This document shows, in pieces, positions 2,991-19,823 of a DNA stretch of 19,823 nt. A program made the position numbers and the translations under genes. Each line of letters opens with the position of its first letter. Positions within the stretch are counted from its first letter, which is position 1. Source of the DNA: Acidobacteriota bacterium. GTDB taxonomy: Bacteria; Acidobacteriota; Blastocatellia; Pyrinomonadales; Pyrinomonadaceae. Location of the stretch: assembly GCA_003222835.1 (NCBI GenBank), contig QHXE01000233.1, forward strand, positions 1-19,823, in the 5' to 3' direction. The notes under the pieces were generated by a model. The model saw only the letters and a list, made by a program, of their open reading frames with translations. It made no database searches and was not told where the DNA came from.

Positions 2991-3105
2991 CCGCCTTCAG
3001 GAGAGTTGAGTGAGCTATAACTCTTGCCCATCTTTTTCAGACGGGAGTCTACCACAATCGCGAGCCAGTGCGTCACAAAGTGCAGAGATCGCGAATCATT
3101 TTTCG

Positions 3106-3765
3106 TCATTGAAGAGCCATGCTTGCGGGACTAGTGGCGGCTACTATGAATGCGCGCAAGGCGATTTGGCGGGCTGCTTGGAGGTCTGACTGATACGGCA
3201 CCACGACGTAATGAACACGGACGCCGGATGCGCTGAAGAAGGCGTGATAGGCCTGGTAATGCTTTTCGGCAACGAGCGCGCCGAGCGTTGAATGGAGATC
3301 AGGGTCGAGATAAATAATATAGATTGCGCCGGCTCGCGGTGGTTGCAGCGTTCCGTCCTTGAACATTCCGGCGAGCACGCTCTGAATTTCCAGATCGCCG
3401 AGGTTTCGATTGCCGGAGATGTCCAGCTTTTCCTGACTGAAAGTTGGGGCGAACCTGTTCTTAATTCCCAAGCCCTCGATCGCATCCAATTGAGTATGTT
3501 CGCGAATATTTAGAAGCAGTTTACTCAACTCAAGCTCGCGCGAGCGCAGCTCCATGTCAGCCCAACCGCTGCCCAGAAAGATGCTGTGCTGTTCGATGTC
3601 GCCGTCTATGGGCTGGCCGAACTTGACTCCGCTACTGAGCTGAAACGTCTTGACAATGAAGGCCTTCCCACCGTCGTCGTTAATCGCCGGTTCGTCGCGC
3701 CTTTCCTGCGCCCGAGTGGTGGCCGTGATCGCGATCATGATCAAAAGAATTAGTTTGAGTTTCAT
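3106..3765 (-). CDS. Small exported protein of unknown function
   Basis: 219 residues from the ATG at 3763-3765. A TTG seven codons further up would put charged residues before the signal, so the ATG is preferred. Only a weak CAGAG stands upstream. Residues 1-19 (MKLKLILLIMIAITATTRAQ) are a clear signal peptide. The mature part is about 200 residues without Cys or further membrane spans. It has an Asp/Glu-rich front half and a regular alpha/beta-looking back half with GAIYIIYLDPDLHSTLG, then HYQAYHAFF, then VRVHYVVVPYQSD. The back half may be a compact domain exposed to the periplasm. I do not recognise the family. It lies among unrelated secreted-protein genes, so context gives no function. 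Confidence 0.7.
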   Translation of the reverse strand: MKLKLILLIMIAITATTRAQERRDEPAINDDGGKAFIVKTFQLSSGVKFGQPIDGDIEQHSIFLGSGWADMELRSRELELSKLLLNIREHTQLDAIEGLGIKNRFAPTFSQEKLDISGNRNLGDLEIQSVLAGMFKDGTLQPPRAGAIYIIYLDPDLHSTLGALVAEKHYQAYHAFFSASGVRVHYVVVPYQSDLQAARQIALRAFIVAATSPASMALQ

Positions 3766-3792
3766 AATCAACTCTGCCCGCCGCAATAGGCT

Positions 3793-3907
3793 CCCTCTCC
3801 TTCTTCGAGAGGGCGGGGAGAGGGTTTGAGCAAGCAGACCTAACCAAATGTTCTTGCTTTTCGGTCCACTCAGGCCCTCACCCTAACCCTCTCCCAACGG
3901 GAGAGGG
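3793..3907. repeat. REP-like pair of hairpins between two genes
   Basis: Hairpin one is CCCTCTC-CTTCTTC-GAGAGGG (3793-3813). Hairpin two is CCCTCTCCC-AAC-GGGAGAGGG (3887-3907). In addition GGGAGAGGGTT (3816-3826) is the inverted repeat of AACCCTCTCCC (3885-3895), so the halves are arranged head to head like a bacterial interspersed mosaic element. Hairpin two starts 15 bases after the stop of the gene at 3922 and may protect or end its transcript, but no T-run follows. Confidence 0.65.
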
Positions 3908-3921
3908 GACTTTTCGACCTG

Positions 3922-6087
3922 TTATGGCGTAGTCACGCTGAGCGCAAAGTCGTCGACCACAAAAGACGTTTTCAAACTCGTGTCTTCAACGCCGACGAGA
4001 TAAATTTGAATTGTCTGACCCTTGAAGCTGCCGAGATCGAAAGATACTTGCGCATAGCCGACCTTAGCACTTAGATTCGAATACGTCGCCAGCGTCGTCA
4101 GCGCTGTACCCGATGAGTTGCGAATCTGGACTTTCAGTGTGTCATACGCTGTCGTGGCCGTCGTTTCGGTCGTGTCGATGTGCAGCCAAAACGAAAGCGT
4201 CGCTTGAGTCGCATTCGCGGGAATCGCGATCTGCTGCATGACCGTGTCTGTGTGCGCTGAACCATAACCATCGAGCCAGGCTTTCCACGATCCTAAGTGC
4301 GCAGGTTCGGACGCTGAATTATCGACGACTCCTGAAGTAACGCTCCACGGCGCGGGATTCGTTGAACCATTTTCAAAACCGGCGTTGCCGAGCAATTGCT
4401 GCGTCGTGCCTCCGCTGCTGGAGACTGTCAAGGTGATCGTGATCGAGTGCGTCGCCCCCCCGCCGGCTCCCGCAACCGAAATCTTGTAAGTTCCCGCGAC
4501 GGTGGAAGCACCAACCGACATTGTCAATGAAGATGACCCCGTGCCGGGCGCGCCAATTGACGATGGATTGAAACTCGCAATTGCACCTGCCGGCAAGTCG
4601 GACGCTGATAAGGCGATCGAGGAATTGAAGCCTCCGGAAGTCGTCGTCGTGATAGCCGAAGAGCCCGAGTTCCCCTGCGAAATTGTCAGAGCAGACGGCG
4701 AAGCCGACAGCGCGAAGTCGCTGCTGCCGGATATCGTCGCATAAAGAGCGAAATCATCGACGACAAAAGAAGTCTTTAACTTCGAGTTTTCAACTCCGAT
4801 CAAATAGACTTGAATTGTTTGTCCTTTGTATGAAGTCACATCGAATGAGACCTGGCGGTACCCCGAATTGGCATCAAGATTCGAGTAGGTCGCCAGCGTC
4901 GCCAGCACCGTGCCTGAGGCATTTCGAATCTGGACCTTCAAGGTGTCATTCGCAATGATTGCCGTTTCAGCCGTGTCGATGTGCAACCAAAAGGACAGCG
5001 TCGCCTGCGCTGTATTCGCGGCGATCGGCACTTGCTGTTGCAGTGTATCAGTGTGCGCCGAGCCGTAACCGTCCAACCATGCTTTCCACGATCCCGTGTG
5101 CGGCGCTTCATAAGTGGAGCTATTATCGATAACTGCCGGCGTAACGGTCCACGGCGCCGGATTGGACGATCCAATTTCAAACCCCGGATTGCCCAGCAAC
5201 TGTTGGATCGTCCCGCTGCCGGTGGTCACTGTCAAATAGATCGTCGTAGGGTGTGTTTGTCCGCCGCCTGTGCCCGTAACTAGCACGTTATAAGTGCCAA
5301 CCGGAGTCGAAGCACCGACAGAGATCGTTAAGGTCGATCCACCTGAGCCTGGCGCAGGGATAGTCGCGGGCAAGAAGCTGGCTGTAGCTCCCGCCGGCAA
5401 GCCTGAGACCGACAACGCAACTGAGGAGTTAAAGGTCCCTGAAAGGGTCGAGGTGATCGTCGCCGTCGCCATGCCGCCCTGACCAATCGTCAGCGAAGAT
5501 GGTGACGCTGATAGTGAATAGAACGGGCCAAACTTGATATCAATGATTGGGTGCAGCTCAATTGCGTTAGGAGCGACGCCTTCCTGACCTTCGATGAAAT
5601 CGAAGAAGCCGACGCCGGTAATTTGAACCGGGACATTGGCAGTTTGGAAACTACCGGTCGCGGTGAACATAGCGTCAAATTGTGCTCGCGCATGCGCGAT
5701 GCCGGCGGCAAAAGGACTGCCTGGCCCGACGCATCCTGGATCTGGGATTTCCGCAATCATCGTATGTCCGGCACTATCCGTTACAACCATGTGATAGTCC
5801 GAGTCGTACGCGAGTTCATACTCCTGCAACGTCACGTTCATAACCCATAGAGTGGTTTCAGTGGGTTGCACGCGGTTATTATCGGGAAGAAAACTGGGCG
5901 GAGGTATGGCTGATAGGTTACTGATTGTCGTGCCGGTCGCAGAGCTAAGATTCACCAAGCTCGCATCGGGATCCGTGCCGGTTTTTACGGACCAACGCTC
6001 AACGCCACATTGTGCGAAAGACTGGTTAGCGAGGAAAAGCGGAAGCACCCCAACGCAGAGCAATGATATAAGAGAGAATCGTTTCAT
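3922..6087 (-). CDS. Exported multidomain protein with two Ig-like plus two jelly-roll (CBM-like) units
   Basis: 721 residues from the ATG at 6085-6087, chosen because a GGGGAAGGG stretch precedes it and a signal peptide starts there (MKRFSLISLLCVGVLPLFLA, cut near SFAQ-C). A GTG 78 bases further up would add a non-signal tail. Residues 26-187 are an N-terminal domain (opening CGVERWSVKTGTDPDASLVN) that I know only as a recurring uncharacterised region in soil bacteria. An Ig-like domain follows at about 190-288 (LSASPSSLTIGQGG, LPAGATASF, PVGTYNVLVTG). A jelly-roll domain resembling carbohydrate-binding modules spans about 294-450 (NPGFEIGSSNPAPW, GSWKAWLDGYGSAHTD, FWLHIDT, SFVVDDFAL). The pair then repeats at about 458-556 and 562-718. 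It is probably a secreted surface or polysaccharide-binding protein (inference). No catalytic motif is visible. Confidence 0.8.
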   Translation of the reverse strand: MKRFSLISLLCVGVLPLFLANQSFAQCGVERWSVKTGTDPDASLVNLSSATGTTISNLSAIPPPSFLPDNNRVQPTETTLWVMNVTLQEYELAYDSDYHMVVTDSAGHTMIAEIPDPGCVGPGSPFAAGIAHARAQFDAMFTATGSFQTANVPVQITGVGFFDFIEGQEGVAPNAIELHPIIDIKFGPFYSLSASPSSLTIGQGGMATATITSTLSGTFNSSVALSVSGLPAGATASFLPATIPAPGSGGSTLTISVGASTPVGTYNVLVTGTGGGQTHPTTIYLTVTTGSGTIQQLLGNPGFEIGSSNPAPWTVTPAVIDNSSTYEAPHTGSWKAWLDGYGSAHTDTLQQQVPIAANTAQATLSFWLHIDTAETAIIANDTLKVQIRNASGTVLATLATYSNLDANSGYRQVSFDVTSYKGQTIQVYLIGVENSKLKTSFVVDDFALYATISGSSDFALSASPSALTISQGNSGSSAITTTTSGGFNSSIALSASDLPAGAIASFNPSSIGAPGTGSSSLTMSVGASTVAGTYKISVAGAGGGATHSITITLTVSSSGGTTQQLLGNAGFENGSTNPAPWSVTSGVVDNSASEPAHLGSWKAWLDGYGSAHTDTVMQQIAIPANATQATLSFWLHIDTTETTATTAYDTLKVQIRNSSGTALTTLATYSNLSAKVGYAQVSFDLGSFKGQTIQIYLVGVEDTSLKTSFVVDDFALSVTTP
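3934..4716 (-). repeat. Second copy of the internal Ig-like/jelly-roll duplication
   Basis: This stretch encodes the C-terminal Ig-like plus jelly-roll unit. It is a near-copy of 4738-5517 with almost the same length and the same order of motifs (WKAWLDGYGSAHTDT, FWLHIDT, TLKVQIRN, SFVVDDFAL). Confidence 0.7.
4738..5517 (-). repeat. First copy of the internal Ig-like/jelly-roll duplication
   Basis: This is the N-terminal copy of the unit, separated from the second by a short Gly/Ser linker (ATISGSSDF). The jelly-roll halves are clearly closer to each other than the Ig-like halves. Confidence 0.7.
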
Positions 6088-6203
6088 CCCTTCCCCTACA
6101 GTCCCAGGTAGACTTCGCGAATAACGAGGACCCGGCGAGGCAGTCCGAAGCCTTCGGAAATCCACACCCCAACAAACGGCACGTTATAGCTAGATAAACT
6201 GAG

Positions 6204-6217
6204 AAGGCCGCGGCCTT
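6204..6217. terminator. Perfect palindrome, possible terminator between the NRPS gene and the next gene
   Basis: AAGGCCGCGGCCTT is a perfect 14-base palindrome 40-53 bases after the stop of the terminal NRPS gene. A run of six T (6222-6227) follows on the plus strand, while on the minus strand only a weak TTT follows. It therefore reads best as a terminator for plus-strand transcripts. Use by the minus-strand NRPS operon is possible but not shown. Confidence 0.35.
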
Positions 6218-6256
6218 TCCATTTTTTGAATCAAGTCAGCACATGGTTTCGGAGAA

Positions 6257-9200
6257 TTATGAGGATGCTAGACCGTCCGCTGACTTGTTCTCCTGCACGC
6301 GGTTTATACAGCTTCTCAATTTTTCTGCCAGCGCTCCGACGTGTGGTTCCTTAATGATGTCGATGTGGTTGCCGGGAATTTCATAAGTTTCGATCTCGCC
6401 CCGTACCAGTTCTCGCCAGCCATCGTATGAGTCATAGTCGGCAGTGAGATCAGTCGCGAGAAAAAGGGTGATGTCGCCTGAGTATGTTTGCGGCGTGTAG
6501 TCTTTCACCGCCGTGAAATTGATCTCCTCGATGTTTTTCAAGACTGGAGGCAGGCGCCTGCCGAGGCGTTGGTAAATTTTGTAGGCCCGGCGATAAAGCT
6601 TATGTTTCGCTTTCTCTGGCGCGTAGGCCAGCTTGTTTAGGAGATAGCCAACTTTCTTGGTTGCATTGAGCTGGCGGAGATTGGTCAGGTGTGACTGGAA
6701 CTTCCGAGCTTGACGGCTGAGACGCTGACCCAGCGATGAGGAGCCGGGCAAGAGTTTGAAGTATCCGGCCGGATACGTGTCGAGAAGGGCCAGCAAGTCA
6801 ACCTTCTCTCCCTCGGCTGCGAGCTGGCAAGCCATCTCGAACGCGATCGTGCCACCCGACGATCGACCGCCGAGCAGGTAGGGTCCTTCGGGCTGCAACT
6901 CGCGCATCTCTTTTATGTAATGCGCCGCCATCTCTTTGACACTCGTGTGCGGCTCTGACCTTCCATCCAATCCTTTCGCTTGCAATCCATAGAAAGGTTG
7001 ATCGGGGCCGAGCAAGCGCCCGAGATCGCGATACTCGAGCACGTTACCGCCAGCCGCATGAACACAGAAGAAGGGATGGAGTTTGCCACCTTGAATCATC
7101 ACCAGTGATGACCACGCGGCTTGCCATCCTTCACCACGCAGCACTCGCGCAAGCTTTTTCACTGTAGGTGCTTGAAAGAGCGTAGCCAGCGGAAGATTCT
7201 TGCCGAATGACTTTTCGATTTGCGCGAAGAGTCGCACCGCGAGCAGCGAGTGACCACCGAGATCGAAAAAGTTGTCGTCAACGCCAACCGGGCGCAAATT
7301 CAAGACCTTCTCCCAAATCCTGGTGAGCTTCAACTCAAGCTCATCACTCGCGGCGACGAAGCCTTTCGCGGATTTCGGCCTGAAACCGTCCGTCGAAGGC
7401 AACGCGCGTCGATCGACTTTGCCCATCGGCGTCAGCGGCAACGTTTCGAGGATGACAAACAGCGAGGGCACCATATGGTGGGGGAGCTTCTGCTGTAAAA
7501 CATCGCGCACGTTATCGATGGTCAGTTCGCGGCCCTTGCGTGCAGTCAGATATGCCACCAGATGCTTGTCTCCCTCATCTTTGCGAGCGATTACGACTGC
7601 CTCGCGCACCGCAGGATGATCAGCCAAAGCCGCTTCAATCTCGCCCAGCTCGATGCGGAAGCCGCGAACCTTAACCTGATTATCGATACGCCCGATGAAC
7701 TCGATCTCGCCTGTCGCCCGATAGCGAACCAAGTCGCCCGTCTTGTAAAGACGGGCATCGGATTGGCTCGAAAAAGAATTGCGAACAAATCGTTCGGTGT
7801 TTAGTTCCGGCCGATCCAGATAACCGTGCGCGAGTCCGTCGCCGCCGATGTAAAGCTCGCCCGGCACACCTATGGGTGCAGGATTAAGATACCGATCGAG
7901 CACATACACGGAAGTGTTCGAGATCGGATAACCGATAGGAACAGAGCCGTTGACGCGCGTCAGATCGTCAACCCGAAAGCAGGTCGTAAAGGTCGTGTTC
8001 TCTGTCGGGCCATAACCGTTGATGAACCGGCAGCCCTTCAACTCTTCGCAAACCTTCCGCACGTGTGGCACGGACAAGACGTCGCCGCCTGCCAACAACT
8101 GCCGGAGACCGCGCAGATCTTCGAGATGGTTATCGACCATCAGATGAAATAGACCAGCGGTAAGCCAGAGCGTGGTGACATCGTGGCGTTTGAGCGCGTC
8201 GCCCAATTCTTTCAGCGAAGCCTTGCCGGCAGGCATCAACGCCAGACGCGCGCCGTTCAGCAGACTGCCCCAAATCTCAAAAGTCGAAGCGTCGAAGGAG
8301 ATCGGCGCGTACTGAAGAAAAACTTCATCGGCCGAGAAGCTGGCATAATTCGTGTTCTTGACCAACCGCACGACGTTGCGATGCATGATTGCGACGCCCT
8401 TCGGCCTGCCCGTCGAGCCGGACGTGTAAATCACATAAGCGAGATTGTCGGCGGTCGTCTTGAGCTCCGGATTTGATTGACTCTCAACCGCAAGTTGCTT
8501 CGATAGCTCGTCAACGCAAACCACTGCCACGGTATCGACAGTGAGATCGCCGAGCAGCTCCCGTTGGGTCAACAGCACTGACACACGCGCATCTTCGATC
8601 ATGAACTGAAGGCGCGGCTTCGGATAATCCGGATCGAGCGGCACATACGCGCCACCGGCTTTCAGAATTCCGAGTAGCGCCACGATCATTTCGGGTGAGC
8701 GATGCAAACAAATAGCGACGCGGGTGTCCGCCACAATTCCCCGTCTTCGGAGGTAATGCGCGAGCTGATTTGCCCGAGCATTCAGCTCGCGATAGGTCAA
8801 CGACCTGTTTCCGCAAATCAGCGCGATTGCGTCAGGGGTGCTTTCAACTTGCTGCTCGAATAACTCCTGGATGCATTTGGTCGAAGGATAGTCGGTCCTC
8901 GTATCGTTCCATTCAACCAACAACTGAAGGCGCTCGCGCTCAGTAAGCAGTGGCAGCTCCGAAAGCCTCTGGCCGGGATTTCGGACGACGCCTTCGAGCA
9001 AGTTCCGGAAATGGCCCATCATTCTCTCGACTGTCTCGCCTTCGAAAAGGTCGGCGTTCGATTCGAACAAACAAACCAGCTGTTCGTCGCGCTCGACGAT
9101 GTCCAGAGTGAGATCGAAATTCGCCATTACGTTTTCAACGCGGAACTGAGTAGCCACCAAGTCGTGAAGTTGCAGCGGCGGTATATCTTCGCTCTGGAGC

Positions 9201-10423
9201 ACGAACATCATCTGGACCAGGGGGTTATGAGCCAGGGTGCGTTCCGGCTGTAACTCCTTCACCAGGCGCTCGAAAGGCAAGTCCTGGTGGGCATACGCCC
9301 CGAGCGCGGACTCCTTCACGCGATTGAGCAGCTCAGTAAAAGCGGGATTACCGGAAAGACTTGCGCGCAATGCCAGCGTGTTTATGAACAACCCGATGAC
9401 ATTTTCAGTTTCCGGCGCGTTCCGTCCGGCTATGGGTGTGCCGACAACGATATCTTCCTCGCCGGTGTAACGATGCAGCAGGGTTTTGAACGCGGCCATC
9501 AGAGTCATGAAGAGCGTGACGCCCTGTTTCTGGCTGAGCTGTTTGAGACTTTGCGTGAGTTGCCGCGAGAGACAAATTGTATGGTGCGCGCCGCGGAAGG
9601 CTTTGAAAGCCTGCTCGTTCGGCCGCGGATGATCGGCGGGCAATTCCAGAATCGGCGGCAGCGTTTCGAATTGTTTTTTCCAATAGGCGAGTTGCGATTC
9701 GTACACCTCGCCGTCAAACCATTGACGTTGCCAGTGCGAGTAATCTGTGTATTGGATCGGCAACTCGGCCAGCGGGGACGGTTGGCCTTTTGAAAAAGCG
9801 TCGTATAGCGCCGACAGTTCCTGATTAAAAACGCCCATCGACCAACCATCGGTAACGATGTGGTGCATCGTGACCAGCAGCAAGTGCTCTTGCTCGCACA
9901 GACGGACCAGGATTGCCCTGATTAAGGGCCCTTGCGAGAGATCGAATGGTATTCGTACTTCGCGCTTGAGGATGCGTTGCGCTTCTGCTTCGCGATCTGC
10001 TTCCGCCAAGTGGCTCAGGTCCGTTAACGGCATTTCGCAAAATACATTCTTTGCGACCACCTGCGACGGCTCTCCATCCACGGTTCTAAACGTTGTCCGC
10101 AAAGCAGCGTGACGCGCGACGATGAAATCCAAAGCTTGCTTCAAAGCCCCAACATCGAGCGCGCCGGTCAGGCGAACTGCCGTCGGCGAGTGATAGAGAG
10201 CAGTCCCGGGCATCAGTTGACTCAAGACCCAGAGACCTTGCTGGTTATAAGAGAGCGGCGCTGATTCGCGCACCGGCTGACGTGGAATCGTCTGATTAGC
10301 CGCTTCGCTGCGGTGCTGCTTTTTCATCAGTCGCAATTCGAGCAGCGAGCGCTTGGCCGGCGAAAGCGCGGCCATCTGTTGCGCGAGACTTGAGTCATAC
10401 GACGAGGCGATCTTCATGCTCAT
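6257..10423 (-). CDS. Nonribosomal peptide synthetase, terminal module C-A-T-TE
   Basis: About 1388 residues. The ATG at 10421-10423 is used, but a TTG at 10429 and an ATG at 10417 are alternatives and none has a good ribosome-binding site. Residues 14-40 form a short helical head (LSPAKRSLLELRLMKK) typical of NRPS proteins that receive a chain from another subunit. The condensation domain (about 55-495) has an intact HHIVTDG at 187-193 and looks like the LCL type. The adenylation domain (about 515-1010) has YTSGSTGRPKG, YGPTEN, YKTGDLVRY, VKVRGFRIELGEIE and the A10 lysine (GKVDRRALP). Its pocket residues read by eye as DAFWLGGTFK, a valine-type signature. The carrier domain has FDLGGHSLLAV with the phosphopantetheine Ser at 1059. 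The thioesterase (about 1117-1378) has GRSSG with Ser1188, Asp1215 (LLDTYP) and His1353 (PGNH), so it can release the product. There is no epimerisation domain. Confidence 0.95.
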   Translation of the reverse strand: MSMKIASSYDSSLAQQMAALSPAKRSLLELRLMKKQHRSEAANQTIPRQPVRESAPLSYNQQGLWVLSQLMPGTALYHSPTAVRLTGALDVGALKQALDFIVARHAALRTTFRTVDGEPSQVVAKNVFCEMPLTDLSHLAEADREAEAQRILKREVRIPFDLSQGPLIRAILVRLCEQEHLLLVTMHHIVTDGWSMGVFNQELSALYDAFSKGQPSPLAELPIQYTDYSHWQRQWFDGEVYESQLAYWKKQFETLPPILELPADHPRPNEQAFKAFRGAHHTICLSRQLTQSLKQLSQKQGVTLFMTLMAAFKTLLHRYTGEEDIVVGTPIAGRNAPETENVIGLFINTLALRASLSGNPAFTELLNRVKESALGAYAHQDLPFERLVKELQPERTLAHNPLVQMMFVLQSEDIPPLQLHDLVATQFRVENVMANFDLTLDIVERDEQLVCLFESNADLFEGETVERMMGHFRNLLEGVVRNPGQRLSELPLLTERERLQLLVEWNDTRTDYPSTKCIQELFEQQVESTPDAIALICGNRSLTYRELNARANQLAHYLRRRGIVADTRVAICLHRSPEMIVALLGILKAGGAYVPLDPDYPKPRLQFMIEDARVSVLLTQRELLGDLTVDTVAVVCVDELSKQLAVESQSNPELKTTADNLAYVIYTSGSTGRPKGVAIMHRNVVRLVKNTNYASFSADEVFLQYAPISFDASTFEIWGSLLNGARLALMPAGKASLKELGDALKRHDVTTLWLTAGLFHLMVDNHLEDLRGLRQLLAGGDVLSVPHVRKVCEELKGCRFINGYGPTENTTFTTCFRVDDLTRVNGSVPIGYPISNTSVYVLDRYLNPAPIGVPGELYIGGDGLAHGYLDRPELNTERFVRNSFSSQSDARLYKTGDLVRYRATGEIEFIGRIDNQVKVRGFRIELGEIEAALADHPAVREAVVIARKDEGDKHLVAYLTARKGRELTIDNVRDVLQQKLPHHMVPSLFVILETLPLTPMGKVDRRALPSTDGFRPKSAKGFVAASDELELKLTRIWEKVLNLRPVGVDDNFFDLGGHSLLAVRLFAQIEKSFGKNLPLATLFQAPTVKKLARVLRGEGWQAAWSSLVMIQGGKLHPFFCVHAAGGNVLEYRDLGRLLGPDQPFYGLQAKGLDGRSEPHTSVKEMAAHYIKEMRELQPEGPYLLGGRSSGGTIAFEMACQLAAEGEKVDLLALLDTYPAGYFKLLPGSSSLGQRLSRQARKFQSHLTNLRQLNATKKVGYLLNKLAYAPEKAKHKLYRRAYKIYQRLGRRLPPVLKNIEEINFTAVKDYTPQTYSGDITLFLATDLTADYDSYDGWRELVRGEIETYEIPGNHIDIIKEPHVGALAEKLRSCINRVQENKSADGLASS

Positions 10424-10429
10424 TTGCAA

Positions 10430-10668
10430 TTCATATTTTACTGACTGGTCACCTAATAGAACTCAGGCTGAGCGAGCAACCGAGTCGGCGAGTTGAATTT
10501 GATGACTGAATTCGTGATGAAAATCCGGGCGACTGAGAGCCGAGTTCATTAAGCTTCATATACCGCTGAGCCATATTTCATCCTAACTAAACAGTGAATC
10601 GCTTGGAGGTTCCCCAAATATGCGGGAGACTGATTAGATGTAATCATGGTCAATGCATCTGGCGCGTG
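10430..10668. other. Gap between the terminal NRPS and the desaturase gene
   Basis: I find no gene, terminator-like hairpin or MbtH-sized reading frame in these 239 bases. The gap is long for an operon, so a separate promoter for the terminal NRPS is possible, but I cannot point to convincing -35/-10 boxes. Confidence 0.4.
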
Positions 10669-11685
10669 TTAATACTTTCCGGCGAGCAGGTAGCGGAAGA
10701 AACGATAGTAAAATCTCGGATAGGATTCCTCGAAATACTTGAAGGGCTCTTGAGCCATCAAGCGCGACTCGTGCTCGGGAAGCCGTTCCATGGCGACGTT
10801 AATATCGTGGTGATGGCCGACGTGATTGCAGTTGTTGTTAACGTACCATTGGGCCAACCTGCTTGCCCTGATGCTTCGCGTATTCAGTCTCGGGTTAGTA
10901 CTGAAAGTTTCACATCTCCAGTGTTCAGGCAGTTCGATCAACGCGTGGATTGGGGCCCAACCGATGATCATGGGGATTAACCAAAGCTGGATCAGGATGT
11001 CCGTACGAAAGGTCACGGAGACCATAAACGCCAGACATAACAACGCCGCCATGGCCAGATAATCGCGGCGAATTCTGCTTATCACCATCTGATTAGGCTT
11101 CGGATTGGTTTCCGAAAGTTTCTCTTCGACTTTGCCAGCAAACGCAAATCCGATCCATTTCAAGGTTCCTGCGAAATGATTGAGCATGGAAAGGTGCAGC
11201 AAGAAACCAGTTATGCGGATCGGTAATGACTTGGACTCCATCCTTTGGTAGTTGTAGCTGAAACTCTCCTTGGTTACATCCTTATGATGACGAAAGTGGT
11301 CAGTAAGGTAGCGCCAAAAGGAAATTCCCAGCGGCGTTGCGATTAACATGCCCAACGCTTGATCGCGGGAGGCGCGACCTGTCGCTGTTCGGTGCAGACA
11401 CTGATGGATCAACTCGGTCGCGTGAGCAAGAACGGCTCCGAGACAAACTTGCACGATAATTCTGAGCAGGCCATGTGTAACCAACACCGCGAAGCCTGCC
11501 AATCCCAACAAACTCGCCAAGACGATGAGCTTGGCTACGAAGATTAGCGGCACGACTTTCCTTAAAAAAGTTCGCTCTGAGGTAACATTATTGGCCGTCC
11601 AGGATCCGAATGAGTTGGCTCGCAATACGGGGTATGCTTCCATTAGACCGTCGGTGGTAATCGAGTCCGGCTGTAGGTTGGTCAT
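10669..11685 (-). CDS. Membrane fatty-acid-desaturase-like diiron enzyme
   Basis: 338 residues from the ATG at 11683-11685, with no strong ribosome-binding site seen. Three histidine boxes of the membrane desaturase/hydroxylase superfamily are present: HQCLH (94-98), HFRHH (130-134) and HVGHH (288-292). A further His pair, HALIELPEH (247-255), lies before box three. Hydrophobic stretches at about 45-92, 110-125, 155-180, 208-227 and 229-250 give the expected multi-pass topology. The iron ligands are all there, so it should be an active O2-dependent desaturase or hydroxylase. It lies between two NRPS genes on the same strand, which suggests tailoring of the peptide or of its starter acid. A free fatty-acyl-lipid substrate is the alternative. 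Desaturation versus hydroxylation cannot be told from sequence. Confidence 0.85.
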   Translation of the reverse strand: MTNLQPDSITTDGLMEAYPVLRANSFGSWTANNVTSERTFLRKVVPLIFVAKLIVLASLLGLAGFAVLVTHGLLRIIVQVCLGAVLAHATELIHQCLHRTATGRASRDQALGMLIATPLGISFWRYLTDHFRHHKDVTKESFSYNYQRMESKSLPIRITGFLLHLSMLNHFAGTLKWIGFAFAGKVEEKLSETNPKPNQMVISRIRRDYLAMAALLCLAFMVSVTFRTDILIQLWLIPMIIGWAPIHALIELPEHWRCETFSTNPRLNTRSIRASRLAQWYVNNNCNHVGHHHDINVAMERLPEHESRLMAQEPFKYFEESYPRFYYRFFRYLLAGKY

Positions 11686-11725
11686 AGCTGATGTCTACCC
11701 GGCATCGGCTGGTACAGGGCAGCTT

Positions 11726-11731
11726 TGTCAA
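11726..11731 (-). promoter_or_regulatory. Possible -35 box (TTGACA) for the desaturase gene
   Basis: A perfect TTGACA on the minus strand lies 41 bases upstream of the desaturase ATG and directly next to the tandem repeat at 11733-11792. No convincing -10 hexamer stands 16-18 bases further on (CCGATG there), so this is weak. Confidence 0.25.
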
Positions 11732-11732
11732 T

Positions 11733-11792
11733 AACTACGGGTAGAAGCAGACTTCAACCCAGAACTACGGGTAAAAGCAGACTTCAACCCAG
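11733..11792. repeat. Two tandem copies of a 30-base direct repeat upstream of the desaturase
   Basis: Unit one is 11733-11762 and unit two is 11763-11792. They abut with no spacer and differ at a single base (G at 11744, A at 11774). Each begins AACTACGGGTA and ends CTTCAACCCAG. The array lies 48-107 bases upstream of the desaturase start, next to a TTGACA. It could be a regulator-binding array or a recent slippage duplication. Confidence 0.85.
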
Positions 11793-11952
11793 CAAACGGT
11801 CCCCATGACCATTGCGCCGTCTCTTGGGTTTCATCGAGATAAAAGTCCCAACGAGGAAATGATTCCAGGAAAAGATGCTTATTGACGCGTTTTGTAGATT
11901 TAATCCGGGGATCCTAAGAAAGAAGAAGGTCTATCTCGTCGGCTAAAGACGA

Positions 11953-14900
11953 TCAAGCTGCGGCTTCGTCGATCCACAATTCGCGATCAAGGCACGCCTG
12001 AGCTTCTTCTTCAGACAAATTCGCTAATTCGTCGATTAGTCTTGCCAGCTCACTCTGTGACTGCTTTTGCGCTACGCGAGGACAAAGCATTTCAGCGAGG
12101 CCGGAGATCGTGGGCGCCTGAAACACATCAACCATGCCCAGCTCGACGTCCAGAACGCTTCTTACCTTCGATACAACTCTCGCGGCCAGCAACGAATGCC
12201 CGCCCAAATCAAAAAAGTTTTCGTCTATGCCGATCTGATCGATCTTCAAAACGTCCCGCCATGCATCAGCCAGCAGTGTTTCAAGTGGCGTTCGTGGCGG
12301 AACAAAACTTTCGTCTGCTTCCGGACGAGTGGGATGCGGCTCGGGTAGCGCCCGCCGATCGGTCTTTCCATTGGGCATCAATGGCAACACATCGATCACT
12401 TCAAACGCCGCCGGCACCATGTAGGAAGGTAGCTTACTTTTCAAAAAGTTACGCAACTCGCTGGTTATTGCCCGCGACCCTGGTACCCAGACGACATAAG
12501 CCACCAGACGCTTGTCGTCATCTTCGCGCAGCACAACGACGCAATCATCAACATCGTCGTGACTTCTGAGGGCCTGTTCAATCTCTTCCAACTCAACGCG
12601 GAATCCGCGAATCTTGATTTGATTGTCGACTCGTCCGAGAAACTCTATGTTTCCATCCGCTTGATAACGAACGACGTCGCCGGTCTGGTAGAGGCGCGCG
12701 CCCGGATCGTCGCTGAACGGATTGGCAATAAACTTCTCAGAGGTGAGATCGGGACGGTTGAGATAACCACGTGCTACGCCAGGCCCACCGATGTGCAGTT
12801 GACCCGGAATGCCCATCGGAACAGGCCGCAGCCCGGGATCGAGCACATAAAGCTTCGTATTTGCCATTGGCCGGCCGATGGGAATAACACGCGGTGTAAT
12901 GCCCGGTGCGTGCGCGCCAAGATCGCAAGCCGTGACGGCAATCGTGGTTTCGGTTGGGCCATAGGTGTTCAGCAGTCTTACATGGTCACCAACAATCTTC
13001 TTCCAGGCGCCGACGCGATCAGATGCTGCCTTCTCGCCGCCAATGATTACCAGGCGAACGCTTTGCGGCAGCGTGAGATTCTGTCCGCTCAAGGCATCCG
13101 TCAATTCATGCCAGTAAGCAGTCGGCAAATCGAGGATTGAAAGGTTCCATTCCTCGCAAAGCCGCAGAAAGTCCTTTGCCGAGCTGATCATTTCATCAGT
13201 GCGCAAGACGATGGTTCCACCACAGGTCAAAGCCAGATAGATTTCTTCCGCGCTGAGATCGAACGAAAGCGACCCAAATTGCAGGATGCGATCCCCAACC
13301 TCGATTTCGTATGCCGACTTGGCAGCCATTATGAAGTTCACCAGCGAGCGGTGTTCGAGCATCACACCCTTCGGATTTCCGGTCGAACCTGACGTATAGA
13401 TCACAAGAGCGACATTAGAGGACGTCATTGGGACTGTCAGATTCTCTGCGCTTTCTCTGGCGATCATTTCCCAATCTTCATCTATGCAAATCATCGTGGC
13501 GTCGCCAGGAATATCTTTCGCAAGGTGTTTTTGGGTGATCACGACGGACAACGCTGCGTCCTCGACCATGAATGCAATTAGATTTTGCGGGTAATTGGGA
13601 TCGAGTGGAACGTAGGCGCCGCCGGCTTTGAGCACGCTCAGAATGCTAACCAGCATTTCGAAAGATCGTTCGACACTGACGCCGACCAGCACCTCCGGGC
13701 CGACACCTTGCTTTCGCAGGTAATTAGCAAGCCGGTTCGCGCGAGAATTCAACTCGCGATATGTCAATTGCTCGTTATGAAACTCAGCGGCGACTGCGTC
13801 GGGCGTCCTGGCGACCTGGGCTTCAAACAGGTCATGTATACACGAGGCTTCAGGAAACTCGGTGCGCTTATCGTTCCATTCAACCAAGAGCTGATGACGC
13901 TCAGCGTCACTGAGCAGCGGCAGATCGCCGAGACGTTGCGCGGGATCGGCAGCCACGGACGCAAGCAAGTTCTGGAAATGTCCAAGCATCCGCTCCACAG
14001 TCGCCGGAGCAAACAAGTCCGTGGCGTACTCGAAAGAAAGGCAAAGCCGGTCGCTCTCGTCTTCGACTTCCAGACTGAGATCGAACTTTGACGTTGCGGT
14101 ATTAAGTTTAACCGGACTCACCGTCAAACCCTCGACCGCGAGATCCGGCGCAGGCGTGTTTTGCAGCGCGAACATTACCTGGAATAGCGGCGAGCGATTG
14201 ATGTTACGCTCGGGATTTAACTCTTCAACTAACTTTTCAAACGGAACATCCTGATTCGAGAAAGCGCCGAGCACGGTCTCGCGGACTCTGCCAAGAAATT
14301 CACGGAAAGTTGGATTGCCGACCATGTCTCCGCGGAAAACCAACGTGTTCACAAAAGCGCCAATTAGATCTTCCGTCTCGAGCATGGTGCGGCCCGCGAC
14401 GGGCGATCCAATGACGATGTCTTCCTGTCCGCTATAGCGAAACAGCAGCGTTTGAAACGCGGCCAACAATGTGATGAACAATGTGCCGCCTTCGCTTTGA
14501 CTCAACTCTTTGAGCGAGTTGGTCAAGGCTCTCGGCACGGTGGCTGATATTCGCGCGCCACTCATGTTTCCCGTCTCAGGCCGCGGAAAATCCGTCGGCA
14601 GATCCAGAGTTGCCGGCGCATTGGCCAGCTTCTGTTTCCAATAATCAAGTTGCTGCTCGAGCGTCTCGCCTTGCAACCGGCGCCGCTGCCACAAAGCAAA
14701 GTCCGCATACTGAATCGGCAATTGCGGAATGGCGGCGTTGTCATCGTCGCCTTGATAGAGGGCTGCTATTTCGCGGAGCAGCAATCCAATCGACCATCCG
14801 TCGCAGATAATATGGTGGATTGTGATAAGCAGCACGTGCTCGGTTGTGCTCAGCTTCAGCAGTTTGGTTCGCAGCAGCGGGCCGTGATTCAGATCGAAGG

Positions 14901-17166
14901 GCGTTTCTGCTTCCGCGGCGAATATGCGATCGATTTCCGCGTCCTGATCCGAAGTCAATGCAAGATCGGAGACTTCGAGGGCTGCGGTCATCGGTGGCGT
15001 AATCACCTGCATCGGCGATCCTTCTATCATGACGAAGTTCGTGCGGAGAATTTCGTGACGTGCGACGACCGTGTTTAGAGCGCGCTGCAACCGTTGAATG
15101 TCGAGCGCGCCGCCAATCCGAATCGCGCTGCCAACGTTGTAGGCGGAACGGTTCGGCGTTGTCTGATCCAATAGCCAGAACTGTTGTTGCGTGAATGACA
15201 GCGGCGCCGTGCCGTTACGCTCAAAGCGGGCGATTGATTGGGGCAACACTCCTTCGTTGCGCTCTTTGAGCGATTGAAGCGCTGCGGCCAGCGAACTAAC
15301 CGTGGGATTGTCGAAGAGAATACGCAACGGCGCTTCAATCAAGAGCTCGCTGCGAACCCGCGAAATGACGCGGACCGCCAGCAATGAGTGTCCGCCCAGC
15401 TCAAAGAAATTGTCGTTGACGCCGACGCGCTCAACGCGCAACACATCACCCCAGATTGCGGCGAGGCTTTTCTCGAATTCGTTTCGTGGCGCGAGATACT
15501 CGCTCGATAGTTTTATTCTCGCCTGTTGAGGATCAGGCAAAGCGAGGCGGTTAACTTTTCCATTTGGGGACAGAGGGAGGCCGTCCAGTAGGACGAATGC
15601 CGCCGGAACCAAATGCTCCGGCAATTGTTCGCTCAGAAAGTTTCGCAACTCTCCGGCGTGGGGCGCCGTTCCATTGGCGACCAGATAAGCAATCAGCTTT
15701 TTATCACCGCCGGCATCATCGCGCGCGACGACTACGCACTCGCGGACCGATGGATGTTTCGTCAGCGCCACTTCGATTTCGCCCAGCTCGATCCGAAAGC
15801 CGCGCAACTTCACTTGCTGATCGCGCCGGCCGGCAAATTCGATCTCGCCACCCTTTCGCATGCGCGCCCAGTCGCCGGTCCGATAGAGTCGCGCGCCGCT
15901 TTGTTCGCTGAACGGATGCGGAATAAATTTCTGAGCGGTGAGTTTCGGATGATTCAGGTAACCGCGACCGATACCGGCCCCACCGATGTATAACTCGCCG
16001 GCTTCGCCGACATCACAGAGGCGCTGTTGTTCATCGAGGACGTAAATCTCAGTGTTGGCGATCGGCGTTCCGATGGGAATTATTTCAATGTTCTCGTCGA
16101 CCTGCTCCGGAATGCGATACAAACAAACGATGCCCGCGGTCTCAGTCTGTCCAAACATGTGCACATGCCGAGCCGAATGCTGAAACTGTCTCATCCAAGT
16201 TTGCGGAATGTCGGATAACAAAGGCTCGCTGGCCGAAAGGATCAGACGCAGTCGATTGTCGAGCAGGCGGGTGCGCTCTTCGTTGCCGAGACTTGCCAGG
16301 ATAGTCGTGCAGTGGCGCCAAAACGACGGCACGGCATCCATCACGGTTACGCCGCTCTTCTTAATCGTCGTGAACAGCGCCAGCGGATCTTTTCGGTGCT
16401 CCGAATTCGCGATCACTACGCCGGCGCCTTGCGACAGCGGCAACATCAATTGGCGCCGCGACGACGAAAAAGCCATCGAGGCGGTGTGTAGATAAAGATC
16501 GTCGGGATTGATTTTCAGCTCGTGATTGAGCGCAAGTAGATAATTTGACAGATTCCCGTGCGTGATCATTGCGCCCTTGGGACGGCCCGTCGATCCTGAC
16601 GTGTAAATCACGTAAGCAAGATCATCCGGCGATGGTCCATCGGAAAGATTCGTTCCGGATTCTTTTGAAATCGCGGACCGGTGCCGATCGAGCAGAACTG
16701 TTGGAGTTTCGCTTGCCGAAAACAGATTTATGAAATTTGATCTCGTCAACAGGAGCCTTGGCTGCGCATCCGCAAGCATGAAAGCCAAGCGCTCACTCGG
16801 GTATTCCGGGTCCAGAGGTAAGTAGGCGCCGCCGGCTTTTAGGATTCCGAGAATACCTATCGCCATCTCAAGCGAGCGATCGATGCAAATCCCAACCAGC
16901 GATTCGGCTCCCACCCCCAAAGCCCGCAAATGGCGCGCGAGCCGATTTGCGCGCACATTCAAGTCCTCAAACGTCAGTGTCTCACCATCGCAGGAGAGGG
17001 CAGTCCTATTCGGATTGTGAGCGGCTTTCTCTTCGAACAAGCGCGGGAATGGCCGTTCGCTAAAGTGAGCCATCCGTGGGCCCCGAAGTTGGGCCGACGA
17101 AGCGGATAGGACGTCAGGAATGTTCTTGGGCGCGAGACTGGATGTCTCGATCTTTGGGTTGGACAT
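11953..17166 (-). CDS. Nonribosomal peptide synthetase, loading plus extension module A-T-C-A-T
   Basis: About 1737 residues from the ATG at 17164-17166. A GTG 12 bases up is an alternative, and neither has a clear ribosome-binding site. Domain A1 (about 40-545) has YTSGSTGRPKG, YRTGDW and the A10 Lys (SPNGKVNRLALP). Its A4 region reads MAFSSSRRQLM where a normal domain has SFDxSxxE, and A5 reads MFGQTETAG instead of YGPTE. Carrier T1 has FELGGHSLLAV (Ser594). The condensation domain (about 655-1090) has HHIICDG and is LCL-like. Domain A2 (about 1110-1610) is conventional, with pocket residues read as DLEDVITIAK, for which I know no match. Carrier T2 has FDLGGHSLLAA (Ser1658). The C-terminal helix (ELARLIDELANLSEEEAQAC) looks like a docking tail for the next subunit. 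There is no TE, so the chain must pass on, most simply to the C-A-T-TE protein at 6257-10423. Confidence 0.95.
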   Translation of the reverse strand: MSNPKIETSSLAPKNIPDVLSASSAQLRGPRMAHFSERPFPRLFEEKAAHNPNRTALSCDGETLTFEDLNVRANRLARHLRALGVGAESLVGICIDRSLEMAIGILGILKAGGAYLPLDPEYPSERLAFMLADAQPRLLLTRSNFINLFSASETPTVLLDRHRSAISKESGTNLSDGPSPDDLAYVIYTSGSTGRPKGAMITHGNLSNYLLALNHELKINPDDLYLHTASMAFSSSRRQLMLPLSQGAGVVIANSEHRKDPLALFTTIKKSGVTVMDAVPSFWRHCTTILASLGNEERTRLLDNRLRLILSASEPLLSDIPQTWMRQFQHSARHVHMFGQTETAGIVCLYRIPEQVDENIEIIPIGTPIANTEIYVLDEQQRLCDVGEAGELYIGGAGIGRGYLNHPKLTAQKFIPHPFSEQSGARLYRTGDWARMRKGGEIEFAGRRDQQVKLRGFRIELGEIEVALTKHPSVRECVVVARDDAGGDKKLIAYLVANGTAPHAGELRNFLSEQLPEHLVPAAFVLLDGLPLSPNGKVNRLALPDPQQARIKLSSEYLAPRNEFEKSLAAIWGDVLRVERVGVNDNFFELGGHSLLAVRVISRVRSELLIEAPLRILFDNPTVSSLAAALQSLKERNEGVLPQSIARFERNGTAPLSFTQQQFWLLDQTTPNRSAYNVGSAIRIGGALDIQRLQRALNTVVARHEILRTNFVMIEGSPMQVITPPMTAALEVSDLALTSDQDAEIDRIFAAEAETPFDLNHGPLLRTKLLKLSTTEHVLLITIHHIICDGWSIGLLLREIAALYQGDDDNAAIPQLPIQYADFALWQRRRLQGETLEQQLDYWKQKLANAPATLDLPTDFPRPETGNMSGARISATVPRALTNSLKELSQSEGGTLFITLLAAFQTLLFRYSGQEDIVIGSPVAGRTMLETEDLIGAFVNTLVFRGDMVGNPTFREFLGRVRETVLGAFSNQDVPFEKLVEELNPERNINRSPLFQVMFALQNTPAPDLAVEGLTVSPVKLNTATSKFDLSLEVEDESDRLCLSFEYATDLFAPATVERMLGHFQNLLASVAADPAQRLGDLPLLSDAERHQLLVEWNDKRTEFPEASCIHDLFEAQVARTPDAVAAEFHNEQLTYRELNSRANRLANYLRKQGVGPEVLVGVSVERSFEMLVSILSVLKAGGAYVPLDPNYPQNLIAFMVEDAALSVVITQKHLAKDIPGDATMICIDEDWEMIARESAENLTVPMTSSNVALVIYTSGSTGNPKGVMLEHRSLVNFIMAAKSAYEIEVGDRILQFGSLSFDLSAEEIYLALTCGGTIVLRTDEMISSAKDFLRLCEEWNLSILDLPTAYWHELTDALSGQNLTLPQSVRLVIIGGEKAASDRVGAWKKIVGDHVRLLNTYGPTETTIAVTACDLGAHAPGITPRVIPIGRPMANTKLYVLDPGLRPVPMGIPGQLHIGGPGVARGYLNRPDLTSEKFIANPFSDDPGARLYQTGDVVRYQADGNIEFLGRVDNQIKIRGFRVELEEIEQALRSHDDVDDCVVVLREDDDKRLVAYVVWVPGSRAITSELRNFLKSKLPSYMVPAAFEVIDVLPLMPNGKTDRRALPEPHPTRPEADESFVPPRTPLETLLADAWRDVLKIDQIGIDENFFDLGGHSLLAARVVSKVRSVLDVELGMVDVFQAPTISGLAEMLCPRVAQKQSQSELARLIDELANLSEEEAQACLDRELWIDEAAA

Positions 17167-17216
17167 GTCTGGCAGCACTCTGAAGTTTCTTGAGTCACCT
17201 AGGGCGGGGTGACGCG

Positions 17217-18140
17217 TTATCTTTTGGCTATTTCAGAATTCTCCTTGCTGATTTCGATGATGGCGCCAACTTTTCGCTTCAGGTCAGTCTGAACCGAGAG
17301 ATAGATGTTTCCCTCGTCGTCGAGCGTTACGCCCTGAACGTTCTTCAGTTGCCCGCCAAATGCCGCGATAGTTTTCAGTTCTTCGTTGGGTGTGTAAACG
17401 TAAAGCTTATTGTTGTGGCTGTCGGTGATGTAAAGCGAACCCTTCGAGTAGAAGATTGTCTCCGGCGAAAAGGAATCTTTTCGATCGACAACGCGATGCA
17501 GTTTCTTTTCACCGTCCAGCAAATAGAGCACATCGTCTTCGTTGTCCGCGATGTAGAGATTGCCGCGATCGTCAAAGACCATGCTCTCAGGCTTGGTAAT
17601 CCCGTATTCTTTTCCCAGAAACTCAGAAACCTGGCCATCGCGCGTGACGCGGAACACTTCATGTTGCTCGCCATCGCCAACCAAAAGCGATCCATCGGGG
17701 GTGAGCGCGATGCCTTCAGTCGAAATTAAACCTTTGTCTTTGCCGGCCACGAGTCGCGGCGTGCCATTGGCGGTAAATTCCCAAAGGCCACCCGCATCGT
17801 CATCGGTGAAAAAAATGTTGTCTTGAGAGTCGATTACCAGATCTTCGGGAGACCGAGTTCCAAAGCGCGAATCGATCAGCGTCCTCAAGCCATCCTGTTT
17901 GCTCCAGGATTCGAGCGCGACGCCGCCCTCGTCGGCCAGGTACAGCTTTCCTTTGTGCCATAGCAGCCCGTCAGGTGATCCGAATTTGATCTTATTGTTA
18001 TTCGCAAACAAGGTCGCCTTGTACGACTCGTCCGTCATGACGACCAGACCTTCCTTCTGAATCTTGCAGGAAGTCAGAAAGACGAGAGCGCCGGCAATGA
18101 TGGCAGTGCCTATTAGCTTCATAGAATTACTTCGCTTCAC
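17217..18140 (-). CDS. Lipoprotein with an NHL/SMP-30-like beta-propeller
   Basis: 307 residues from the GTG at 18138-18140, chosen because AAGGAG stands 4 bases upstream. The ATG at 18120-18122 is the alternative and has no ribosome-binding site. Either start leaves a lipoprotein signal peptide with lipobox LTSC (Cys25), so the protein should be lipid-anchored in the envelope. The rest is a run of about six blades with NHL/SMP-30-style units: SPDGLLWHKGKLYLADEGG, SPEDLVIDSQDNIFFTDDD, STEGIALTPDGSLLVGDG, KPESMVFDDRGNLYIADN, SPETIFYSKGSLYITDSH and VQGVTLDDEGNIYLSVQ. Such propellers bind ligands or act as lactonases, but no catalytic set can be assigned. The gene is coupled to the PAP2 gene ahead of it, and its stop lies about 50 bases before the NRPS start, so the three probably share a transcript. 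Its role in the pathway is unknown. Confidence 0.88.
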   Translation of the reverse strand: MKRSNSMKLIGTAIIAGALVFLTSCKIQKEGLVVMTDESYKATLFANNNKIKFGSPDGLLWHKGKLYLADEGGVALESWSKQDGLRTLIDSRFGTRSPEDLVIDSQDNIFFTDDDAGGLWEFTANGTPRLVAGKDKGLISTEGIALTPDGSLLVGDGEQHEVFRVTRDGQVSEFLGKEYGITKPESMVFDDRGNLYIADNEDDVLYLLDGEKKLHRVVDRKDSFSPETIFYSKGSLYITDSHNNKLYVYTPNEELKTIAAFGGQLKNVQGVTLDDEGNIYLSVQTDLKRKVGAIIEISKENSEIAKR

Positions 18141-18144
18141 GATG

Positions 18145-18150
18145 CTCCTT
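18145..18150 (-). promoter_or_regulatory. Shine-Dalgarno AAGGAG overlapping the PAP2 stop codon
   Basis: The TAA of the PAP2 gene (18149-18151) supplies the AA of AAGGAG. The GTG of the lipoprotein gene follows 4 bases later. Ribosomes ending PAP2 can restart directly, which implies translational coupling. This site also decides the GTG over the downstream ATG. Confidence 0.7.
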
Positions 18151-19036
18151 AACTGATTCCGAACAGCACGTGCCTCCGCATTGCCGCCAGCAATCCGAGA
18201 AACGCTCTGACGTGGATCATTGTGCTGGAGACTTCGAAAGCTACGGCGAAGATGAGTGCGCTCGACAGCGCGCTGTAGCTCACGGTTAAGCCAGCGAGTT
18301 TGTCGAGCCAAACACTAAACCTCTTTCTGAGGGCGTACTGGATGATCGAAACTTCGGCAATCGCAACCCCGGCGCCGGCGGCAATGTCCAGCGGCGTGTG
18401 CTGTGCGCCAATCATCTTGCCCATTAGGATTACCAGGATGGTCCAGCCGAGTGCGATCAATCCCAGCCGGCGCGACGCCAGCCAGATGCCGAGCGAGATC
18501 GCGATGAAAAAACCGGCGTGGTCGCTGGGAAACGATCCCAGATCGTTGGTTTCGACGTAGCCGTTTAGCAGAGCGCGATAATCCTTCTGGCTGTTTGCAT
18601 CCAAAGGCACACGCACCGGCATGCGCTTCATCTCGACGAGTTGATCTCCTTCGAGCCGATAGATCTTGCGCGACTGAATCTCCGGCCTGGGAAGAAAAAT
18701 GGTGTGTGACAGGACTTTCGTGGTCGCGATCACACAGACCGAAGCCAACAACCCGACAATCAGAATCTTGCGGCGCGTGGTGGTTCCATTAGTTGTTTTT
18801 CCGCCATACCAGGCAGCCAGAAAGCAACAACCAATCACGCCGGCCTTCGCCAGATCGTTGTCCTGAAAAAACGCGACCGTGCTGTCGAACAACCAAGATC
18901 GCCCCGCCAGGCCATTAATGCCCAGCAGAAGCCGATCGTTTAAGTTCGTCAGCGTCGTCACGAGCGAAGCGAAAACCGATGAAACAATAATTGCGCCGAC
19001 CAATTCGTTTGCCTCCCAAATCAATTCAACTCTCAT
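18149..19036 (-). CDS. PAP2-superfamily integral membrane phosphatase
   Basis: About 295 residues from the ATG at 19034-19036. A TTG at 19001-19003 has GGGAGG 8 bases upstream and is a serious alternative start. A TTG at 19051 is less likely. Active-site motifs of the PAP2 (phosphatidic acid phosphatase type 2) superfamily are present. K107 leads to R117-P118 (LPRP), with a spacer longer than the usual six residues. PSDH lies at 170-173. GKMIGAQHTPLD (206-217) keeps the His and Asp, but Lys stands where the family normally has Arg. Several hydrophobic helices surround these motifs, and about 70 hydrophobic residues follow the last motif. The family removes phosphate from lipid phosphates such as undecaprenyl pyrophosphate. 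The gene is the first of the minus-strand run leading to the NRPS genes, so a link to product maturation or resistance is possible but unproven. Confidence 0.85.
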   Translation of the reverse strand: MRVELIWEANELVGAIIVSSVFASLVTTLTNLNDRLLLGINGLAGRSWLFDSTVAFFQDNDLAKAGVIGCCFLAAWYGGKTTNGTTTRRKILIVGLLASVCVIATTKVLSHTIFLPRPEIQSRKIYRLEGDQLVEMKRMPVRVPLDANSQKDYRALLNGYVETNDLGSFPSDHAGFFIAISLGIWLASRRLGLIALGWTILVILMGKMIGAQHTPLDIAAGAGVAIAEVSIIQYALRKRFSVWLDKLAGLTVSYSALSSALIFAVAFEVSSTMIHVRAFLGLLAAMRRHVLFGIS

Positions 19037-19247
19037 GAGATAAAGGTTCAAAACGCCAAACTTGCCAGAAATCTAAGCGGACGCAATGTCCTGATCCCAA
19101 CCAGGTTGAGATCGAACTTGGATGACCATGGCCTTCGACTCCACTACGCTCAAATTAGTGCCCGGGGAGCACGGAACCTGCTTGCTATTAATCATTTAAC
19201 CCTGCGGGAGGTTTTTCAGGTCCAGCGACTCCGGAGGACCGATTCAC
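19037..19247. promoter_or_regulatory. Divergent intergenic region, probable promoters for both NRPS-locus arms
   Basis: These 211 bases separate the minus-strand PAP2 gene from the plus-strand NRPS gene, so promoters for both must lie here unless transcripts start further in. An AT-rich patch (TTGCTATTAATCATTTAA, about 19182-19199) is a candidate core promoter region. I see no clear consensus hexamers and no strong inverted repeat. Confidence 0.4.
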
Positions 19248-19823
19248 ATGTCCGCTTCAATCGCGCGCCACTGTTCTTACGAAATCCATCCGCCTTCAAA
19301 GTCCGAGGAAGAGATGTCTCCCGCCCTGACCAGGCAGACAGTTTCCTTAACGCGGAACGTCGCTGAGTTGGTCGCCGCACACGCAGCGGCAGCGCCAAAG
19401 GCGATTGCCATTACTGACGATGGCAGAGTGATGACCTATGGCGAACTGGATGAACGTGCGAACCGGCTGGCCAATTATCTCATTGAGCTCGGCGTCGGAC
19501 CGGAAGCCATTGTGGGACTTTGTCTGGATCGTTCCCTGCTGTCGGTCGTGAGCGCCCTCGCAGTTCTTAAAAGCGGCGGAGCCTTCCTCCCGCTCGATCC
19601 GGCCTATCCGATCGAGCGACTGCTCTTCATGCTGAACGATGCCCAGCCGAGCGTGGTAATAACTCTTGACGCAGATGCAAAGAACATCTCGCGCGGTCGA
19701 TGGAAGGTTCTTAGTATCGATGGTAATGAAACCTATGAGAATTATTCCGCCGACGTACCCGCTACCACATTCAGCAGCGAGCAACTGGCTTATGTCATCT
19801 ATACGTCCGGGTCAACCGGACAA
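19248..19823 (+). CDS. NRPS gene starting with an adenylation domain, N-terminal fragment (runs off right edge)
   Basis: 192 residues are visible from the ATG at 19248-19250, which has GGAGG 10 bases upstream. The in-frame ATG at 19314-19316 (GAGG 5 bases upstream) is equally plausible and would leave 170 residues. No stop is met before the window ends. The visible part is the front of an AMP-binding/adenylation domain: NVAELVAAHAAAAPKAIAI, then TYGELDERANRLANYL, then LKSGGAFLPLDPAYP (A2), and at the very end LAYVIYTSGSTG (A3, the P-loop). The substrate-pocket residues lie beyond the edge. Because the protein starts with an A domain, it is a loading module or a stand-alone ligase. It is divergent from the PAP2-lipoprotein-NRPS run and probably belongs to the same locus. 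Confidence 0.88.
   Translation, partial: MSASIARHCSYEIHPPSKSEEEMSPALTRQTVSLTRNVAELVAAHAAAAPKAIAITDDGRVMTYGELDERANRLANYLIELGVGPEAIVGLCLDRSLLSVVSALAVLKSGGAFLPLDPAYPIERLLFMLNDAQPSVVITLDADAKNISRGRWKVLSIDGNETYENYSADVPATTFSSEQLAYVIYTSGSTGQ

Follow-up and report, generated by a model that had tools for sequence, protein, structure and literature searches.

Organization of the locus

The window, by which we mean the whole 19,823-nt stretch of DNA analyzed here (contig QHXE01000233.1, positions 1-19,823), carries two NRPS genes on the minus strand as well as the start of a divergent third one. The subject of this work is the starter adenylation (A) domain of NRPS gene 1, hereafter A*. The features that matter for the argument are the following.

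6257..10429, minus strand: NRPS gene 2, C-A-PCP-TE, Val-like code DAFWLGGTFK
10669..11685, minus strand: membrane fatty-acid-desaturase-like protein (P0003), between the two NRPS genes
11953..17178, minus strand: NRPS gene 1, 1741 aa, A*-PCP-C-A2-PCP, GTG start or ATG at about 17166
12343..13830 (limits approximate), minus strand: second A domain of NRPS gene 1, Arg/Lys-like code DLEDIGTIAK
13885..15213, minus strand: condensation (C) domain of NRPS gene 1, residues 656-1098, HHIICDG intact
15367..15396, minus strand: phosphopantetheine site GGHSLLAVRV of the first carrier domain
15535..17046, minus strand: starter adenylation domain A*, residues 45-548, code SSRDLAMGIK
16132..16155, minus strand: A5 motif FGQTETAG of A*, with Gly at position 330
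16336..16338, minus strand: Asp at PheA position 278 of A*, within VTVMD
16450..16476, minus strand: MAFSSSRRQ stretch of A*, with Ser at PheA position 235 (codon 16465-16467) and Arg at 239 (codon 16453-16455)
17217..18311, minus strand: NHL/SMP-30-like beta-propeller, conserved neighbor, likely start inside the ORF
18149..19051, minus strand: PAP2-family phosphatase, conserved neighbor
19248..19823, plus strand: divergent NRPS gene, start only, its A domain truncated where the window ends

In line order, the three A domains carry the codes SSRDLAMGIK (A*), DLEDIGTIAK and DAFWLGGTFK. The second is read as Arg/Lys-like because it matches the E239/D278/I299/G301 pattern of Arg domains given in PMC12283262, and the third lies one residue away from a Val code in PMC11355689. 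As originally predicted, A* belongs to the first module of the line, and since no C domain comes before it in the window gene we regard it as a loading module. A* would load an acid, here called X, onto the first PCP, the line would add an Arg/Lys-like residue and then Val, and the TE would release the tripeptide X-(Arg/Lys)-Val, in the order that we infer.

Pfam detects no KR domain in the NRPS gene 1 protein (P0001), no aryl-acid biosynthesis genes are found among the scanned proteins of the window, which spans 19.8 kb only, and TauD, an interface domain and a C domain upstream of A* are all absent within it. No relative of the desaturase-like P0003 was detected at E <= 1e-3 in 63 fetched loci, where the control NHL and PAP2 proteins were matched; a Methylosinus desaturase near A* was rejected as a candidate relative, the match (24% over 71 residues, E 0.38) not being clear. 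Elsewhere in the window, a protein encoded at 2136-2981 (minus strand) has a PA-IL-like domain (PF07828, 26.3 bits, above the cut-off), and P0008 matches the NCBIfam model acidobact_VWFA, which together with the nearest named relatives of A* gives the window an acidobacterial look.

A starter domain with Ser in place of Asp235

With an AMP-binding fold, the A3, A7 and A8 motifs and the A10 Lys, A* qualifies as an NRPS adenylation domain. These motifs and the catalytic Lys are intact, as had been claimed; judged by its sequence, the domain looks functional, and it probably has adenylation activity. Code extraction bears out both anomalies of the original prediction, Ser instead of Asp at position 235 and the divergent A5 motif FGQTETAG. 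The code given there, SSRDISMGIK, is off by one residue at both 299 and 301 and is corrected here to SSRDLAMGIK, Ser235 being unaffected. Realignment, run on the window domain and its relatives, never restored an Asp at position 235. The predicted model of A* has a normal fold, and the fold search matches ordinary A domains, many of them tied in Z and uninformative on substrate; a profile search of the PDB, with a 140-residue pocket alignment as query, returned zero chains at E <= 1e-15.

A pocket fixed throughout a large clade

Three protein searches, the first of which gave 1439 proteins at E <= 1e-30 with the best 120 listed, provided 233 listed matches that together with the window protein form a set of 234 proteins; as it consists of best matches only, this sample is biased toward what is related to the three queries. 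S235, S236, R239, D278 and G330 are kept in 234/234 proteins examined (listed best matches and window), and S235, R239 and D278 are present in 35/35 named loci. Position 236 is Ser or Ala in 39/39 locus domains, a kind of count that is partly circular because Ser235, Arg239 and Asp278 had served to select these domains. The named relatives span Acidobacteriota, cyanobacteria, rhizobia, methanotrophs, Gemmatimonadota and Streptomyces, and those nearest to the window A* among the listed matches are from Acidobacteria gp4 and Pyrinomonadaceae. The A* code is also read in the plasmid loci L040, L044 and L050, and the L042 translation has the same motif. Identity to the window domain is 41-65% in 22 of the 23 other rows of the alignment, with the pocket fixed. 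Such retention of the pocket among relatives this distant, a normal model fold and the intact A3, A7, A8 and A10 motifs make it very improbable that A* lacks activity or selectivity and that its carrier is loaded in trans, a notion to which the missing canonical substrate anchor lends some weight.

Within the class of L005's genome, a match is present in 13/162 genomes, or in 11/162 after removal of L062 and L063, both of which have Asp235 and were rejected as A* members; L060 is a diverged member with the code SVRDLVVGV. In the tree, A*-code domains are monophyletic (53/53), and with rooting on 10 FAAL-like domains the A* clade branches off ahead of 70 other A domains (node support 0.98), five further odd domains falling outside both groups. 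We make no claim on the depth of the A* clade, as the sample is what the loci contained and the A* node's own support is 0.44. Ser235 and the A5 change are thus no oddity of this one gene but are fixed across a large clade.

None of six spellings of the A* code occurs in the 5.39 million open-access papers searched, and our searches found no characterized relative of A*. The code differs from that of the loci's FAAL-like domains, as which we take those with a DMGGFGCLMK-like pocket. A* belongs to a large and strictly conserved family of building-block selectors without the usual amino-acid anchor, a family that appears to be uncharacterized.

Gene neighborhoods and upstream domains in the relatives

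PAP2, NHL and the A* gene follow one another in this order in L001, L002, L004, L005, L006 and L023, which amounts to six of the seven acidobacterial loci reaching that far upstream when the differing Bryobacteraceae locus L026 is left out; L020 has TauD in place of PAP2 - NHL, and L003 begins inside the A* gene. At L023:8117-14602, a Polysacc_synt_3 polysaccharide-flippase domain (E 2.9e-12) is located at the N-terminus of the A* NRPS ORF, and ORFs beside the A* genes of L002, L004 and L020 look by eye like glycosyltransferases or flippases, a hint that the A* peptide is tied to an exopolysaccharide or export pathway. In a Gemmatimonas A* line (L034:7673-15583), the second A domain is split by a luciferase-like monooxygenase (PF00296, residues 1905-2207).

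When the 234 proteins are sorted by a script, 166 have A* near the N-terminus, 28 have it behind an interface-like domain, 23 behind HHxxxD and 17 behind some other sequence; in the Acidobacteriota loci, A* usually comes first, without C upstream. A C domain precedes A* in 20/35 named loci. Seven of them (L025, L027-L030, L032, L033) have a CoA-ligase-like domain, a PCP and an intact C domain (HHxxxDG, in cis) before A*, the first of these domains being presumably akin to oxalyl-CoA synthetase, as judged by eye; rhizobial and Phycisphaerales lines are among these loci. Five others (L008, L010, L011, L013, L031) have a C-A*-PCP-TE gene in which HHxxxD is followed by E, R or D replacing Gly, and 5/20 C domains before A* have thereby lost the Gly of HHxxxDG. 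In the remaining eight (L009, L012, L014, L016, L017, L019, L021, L022), an intact HHxxxDG C domain lies upstream after a FAAL-like domain, both in one ORF in 7/8 and the C domain in its own ORF in L022.

Further Asp235-less A domains accompany A* in some loci. L027-L030, L032 and L033 (not L025) have a second one, with code ASAHAARHIK, followed by PCP-TE in L030 and L032, and A-PCP(-TE) genes with the Asp235-less code MGRH[VI]GGTVK lie near the cyanobacterial C-A*-PCP-TE gene at L008:1249-4056 and L010:18298-20418.

Since a C domain precedes A* in so many loci, X should offer an amine or a hydroxyl, and these upstream C domains could be making esters. An amine on X is not required in the window, which is without TauD, interface or upstream C domain. 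By-eye reading showed no X-making neighbor gene near the C-A*-PCP-TE gene of L011, L013 or L031, and X may therefore need no dedicated pathway.

TauD, interface and FkbM modules

In 10/35 named loci (L007, L009, L012, L014, L016, L017, L019, L020, L021, L022), the ORF immediately upstream of A* encodes TauD, and in 4/8 plasmid loci (L040, L042, L044, L050) TauD adjoins A*; at L041 it lies about 6.6 kb from A*, and none was seen at L038, L039 and L043. In eight cyanobacterial loci, the domain before A* reads LPALCAD-like instead of HHxxxDG, and in a tree without support values this C-like domain groups with the interface domains of CcsI and CcsL, which are beta-OH-Asp modules of cyanochelin B according to PMC12628792. 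The combination of interface-A-PCP module and TauD is thus found in cyanobacterial relatives and not in the window. In a second tree without support values, the standalone TauDs linked to A* are placed close to the Asp hydroxylase CcsK and to the TauD beside the DSALIAEVWK module of L016, which we take to be His-type. TauD enzymes of a group to which those beside A* may belong act on Asp and His in NRPS siderophores, as described in PMC12971057, and activation of the alpha-carboxyl may be the better fit to this.

At L020 and L040, A* contains an inserted FkbM methyltransferase, with TauD next door in both, and an FkbM domain is listed in 20/48 proteins from the search with an FkbM-insert query. 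L040:5717-27971 and L050:3023-23484 share an actinomycete cluster of carbamoyltransferase, P450, M20-type or Zn-dependent hydrolase, TauD and A* gene, the last annotated as FkbM methyltransferase, an insert that Pfam confirms in L040. In L032, Pfam places a malate/lactate-dehydrogenase-like domain after A*-PCP, and in L012 A* shares its line with the normal Asp code DLTKIGHIGK.

Candidate substrates

The C-domain and TauD contexts, Arg239 and the precedent of VinN and FlvN lead us to favor, tentatively, an acidic building block whose amine sits away from position 235, for instance a side-chain-activated Asp or Glu or a closely related beta- or gamma-amino acid. That X has an acidic group is suggested by Arg239. 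In this pocket the free carboxylate would be bound by Arg239 and the amine by Asp278, and a basic residue 239 together with Asp278 presumably resembles Glu-type codes. As a point against the favored reading, these two residues may only be partners of one another. The action of TauD enzymes on Asp and His, the possible making of esters by upstream C domains, the Gly lost in 5/20 of these, the N-terminal place of A* in 166/234 proteins and the window's lack of TauD, interface and upstream C domain weigh against it as well. There is precedent for amino diacids bound to a carrier with their second carboxylate free, VinN (3-methylaspartate) and FlvN (Asp) loading theirs as beta-amino acids (PMC11284099). 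Identity of code suggests that the same pocket takes the same substrate across the A* clade and, given one substrate per pocket, X would have an amine or hydroxyl and could be hydroxylated once carrier-bound.

A bolder version, which we hold to be improbable, makes A* a separate lineage of NRPS A domains that binds the head group backwards, Arg239 and Asp278 clamping the alpha-carboxylate and amine while the side-chain carboxylate is adenylated. If true, there would be a beta- or gamma-linked (iso) residue in every A* line, in some lineages hydroxylated by TauD and perhaps O-methylated by FkbM.

An ordinary alpha-amino acid, Asp or a beta-hydroxylated relative, could instead be activated through its alpha-carboxylate, with the amine held by Asp278, another residue or the backbone. 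The kinship of the cyanobacterial interface/TauD modules with the cyanochelin B Asp modules, the Asp code in the A* line of L012 and the placement of A*-linked TauDs near CcsK and the L016 TauD (in a tree without support values) all speak for it. Alpha-amino-acid domains keep Asp235, however, according to PMC12283262 and PMC11355689, Ser occupies this position in every one of the 234 A* proteins, and some A* lines use the canonical Asp code elsewhere; we consider this alternative unlikely, if a serious one.

The original prediction was of priming with a non-alpha-amino acid, and the view that an acid without an amine (alpha-hydroxy, keto or dicarboxylic) primes the peptide draws on Ser235, on the first position of A* in most Acidobacteriota loci and its N-terminal place in 166/234 proteins, and on Arg239, by which a second carboxylate could be read. 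The GQTET form of A5 is known from acyl-CoA synthetases too, and that shared motif points the same way. Against an amine-free acid stand the C domain before A* in 20/35 loci, to which a hydroxy acid would still be suited, the lack of a KR domain of the kind found in keto-acid modules and the lack of aryl-acid genes among the scanned window proteins, and we judge it unlikely. Of the classes first proposed, beta-amino and hydroxy acids accordingly stay possible, and aryl and keto acids are disfavored by those C domains and by the interface/TauD modules.

Whichever acid it is, a pocket conserved across several phyla points to one building block common to many biosynthetic lines, cyanochelin-like siderophore clusters of cyanobacteria among them. 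Prediction based on Asp235 gives no answer for A* clusters, and the residue assigned in one member could serve many.

Comparison with known systems

A* and GrsA PheA (1amu) are alike in fold, in the A3, A7, A8 and A10 motifs and in the catalytic Lys; A* differs by Ser for Asp235, by GQTETxGI for GPTETT in A5 and by conserved Arg239 and Asp278. Beta-alanine-type A domains have Asp at 236 instead of 235. Those of L041 (VDSVVSLADK) and L020 (GDWVTSLADK), which we assume to be beta-alanine NRPS domains, lack Asp235 as A* does and share 26-27% identity with it in the pocket region, but have Asp236 where all 234 A* proteins have Ser. With CcsI and CcsL of cyanochelin B, cyanobacterial A* has in common the type of interface domain in front and the TauD beside, whereas the window A* has neither; the cyanochelin B Asp modules read the canonical DLTKIGHVGK and not the A* code, and A* was rejected as an ordinary Asp domain of cyanochelin for this reason. 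The proposed likeness to VinN and FlvN, an analogy of function, lies in a displaced amine and in a free carboxylate that the enzyme would read, and VinN works with a standalone ACP (PMC11284099).
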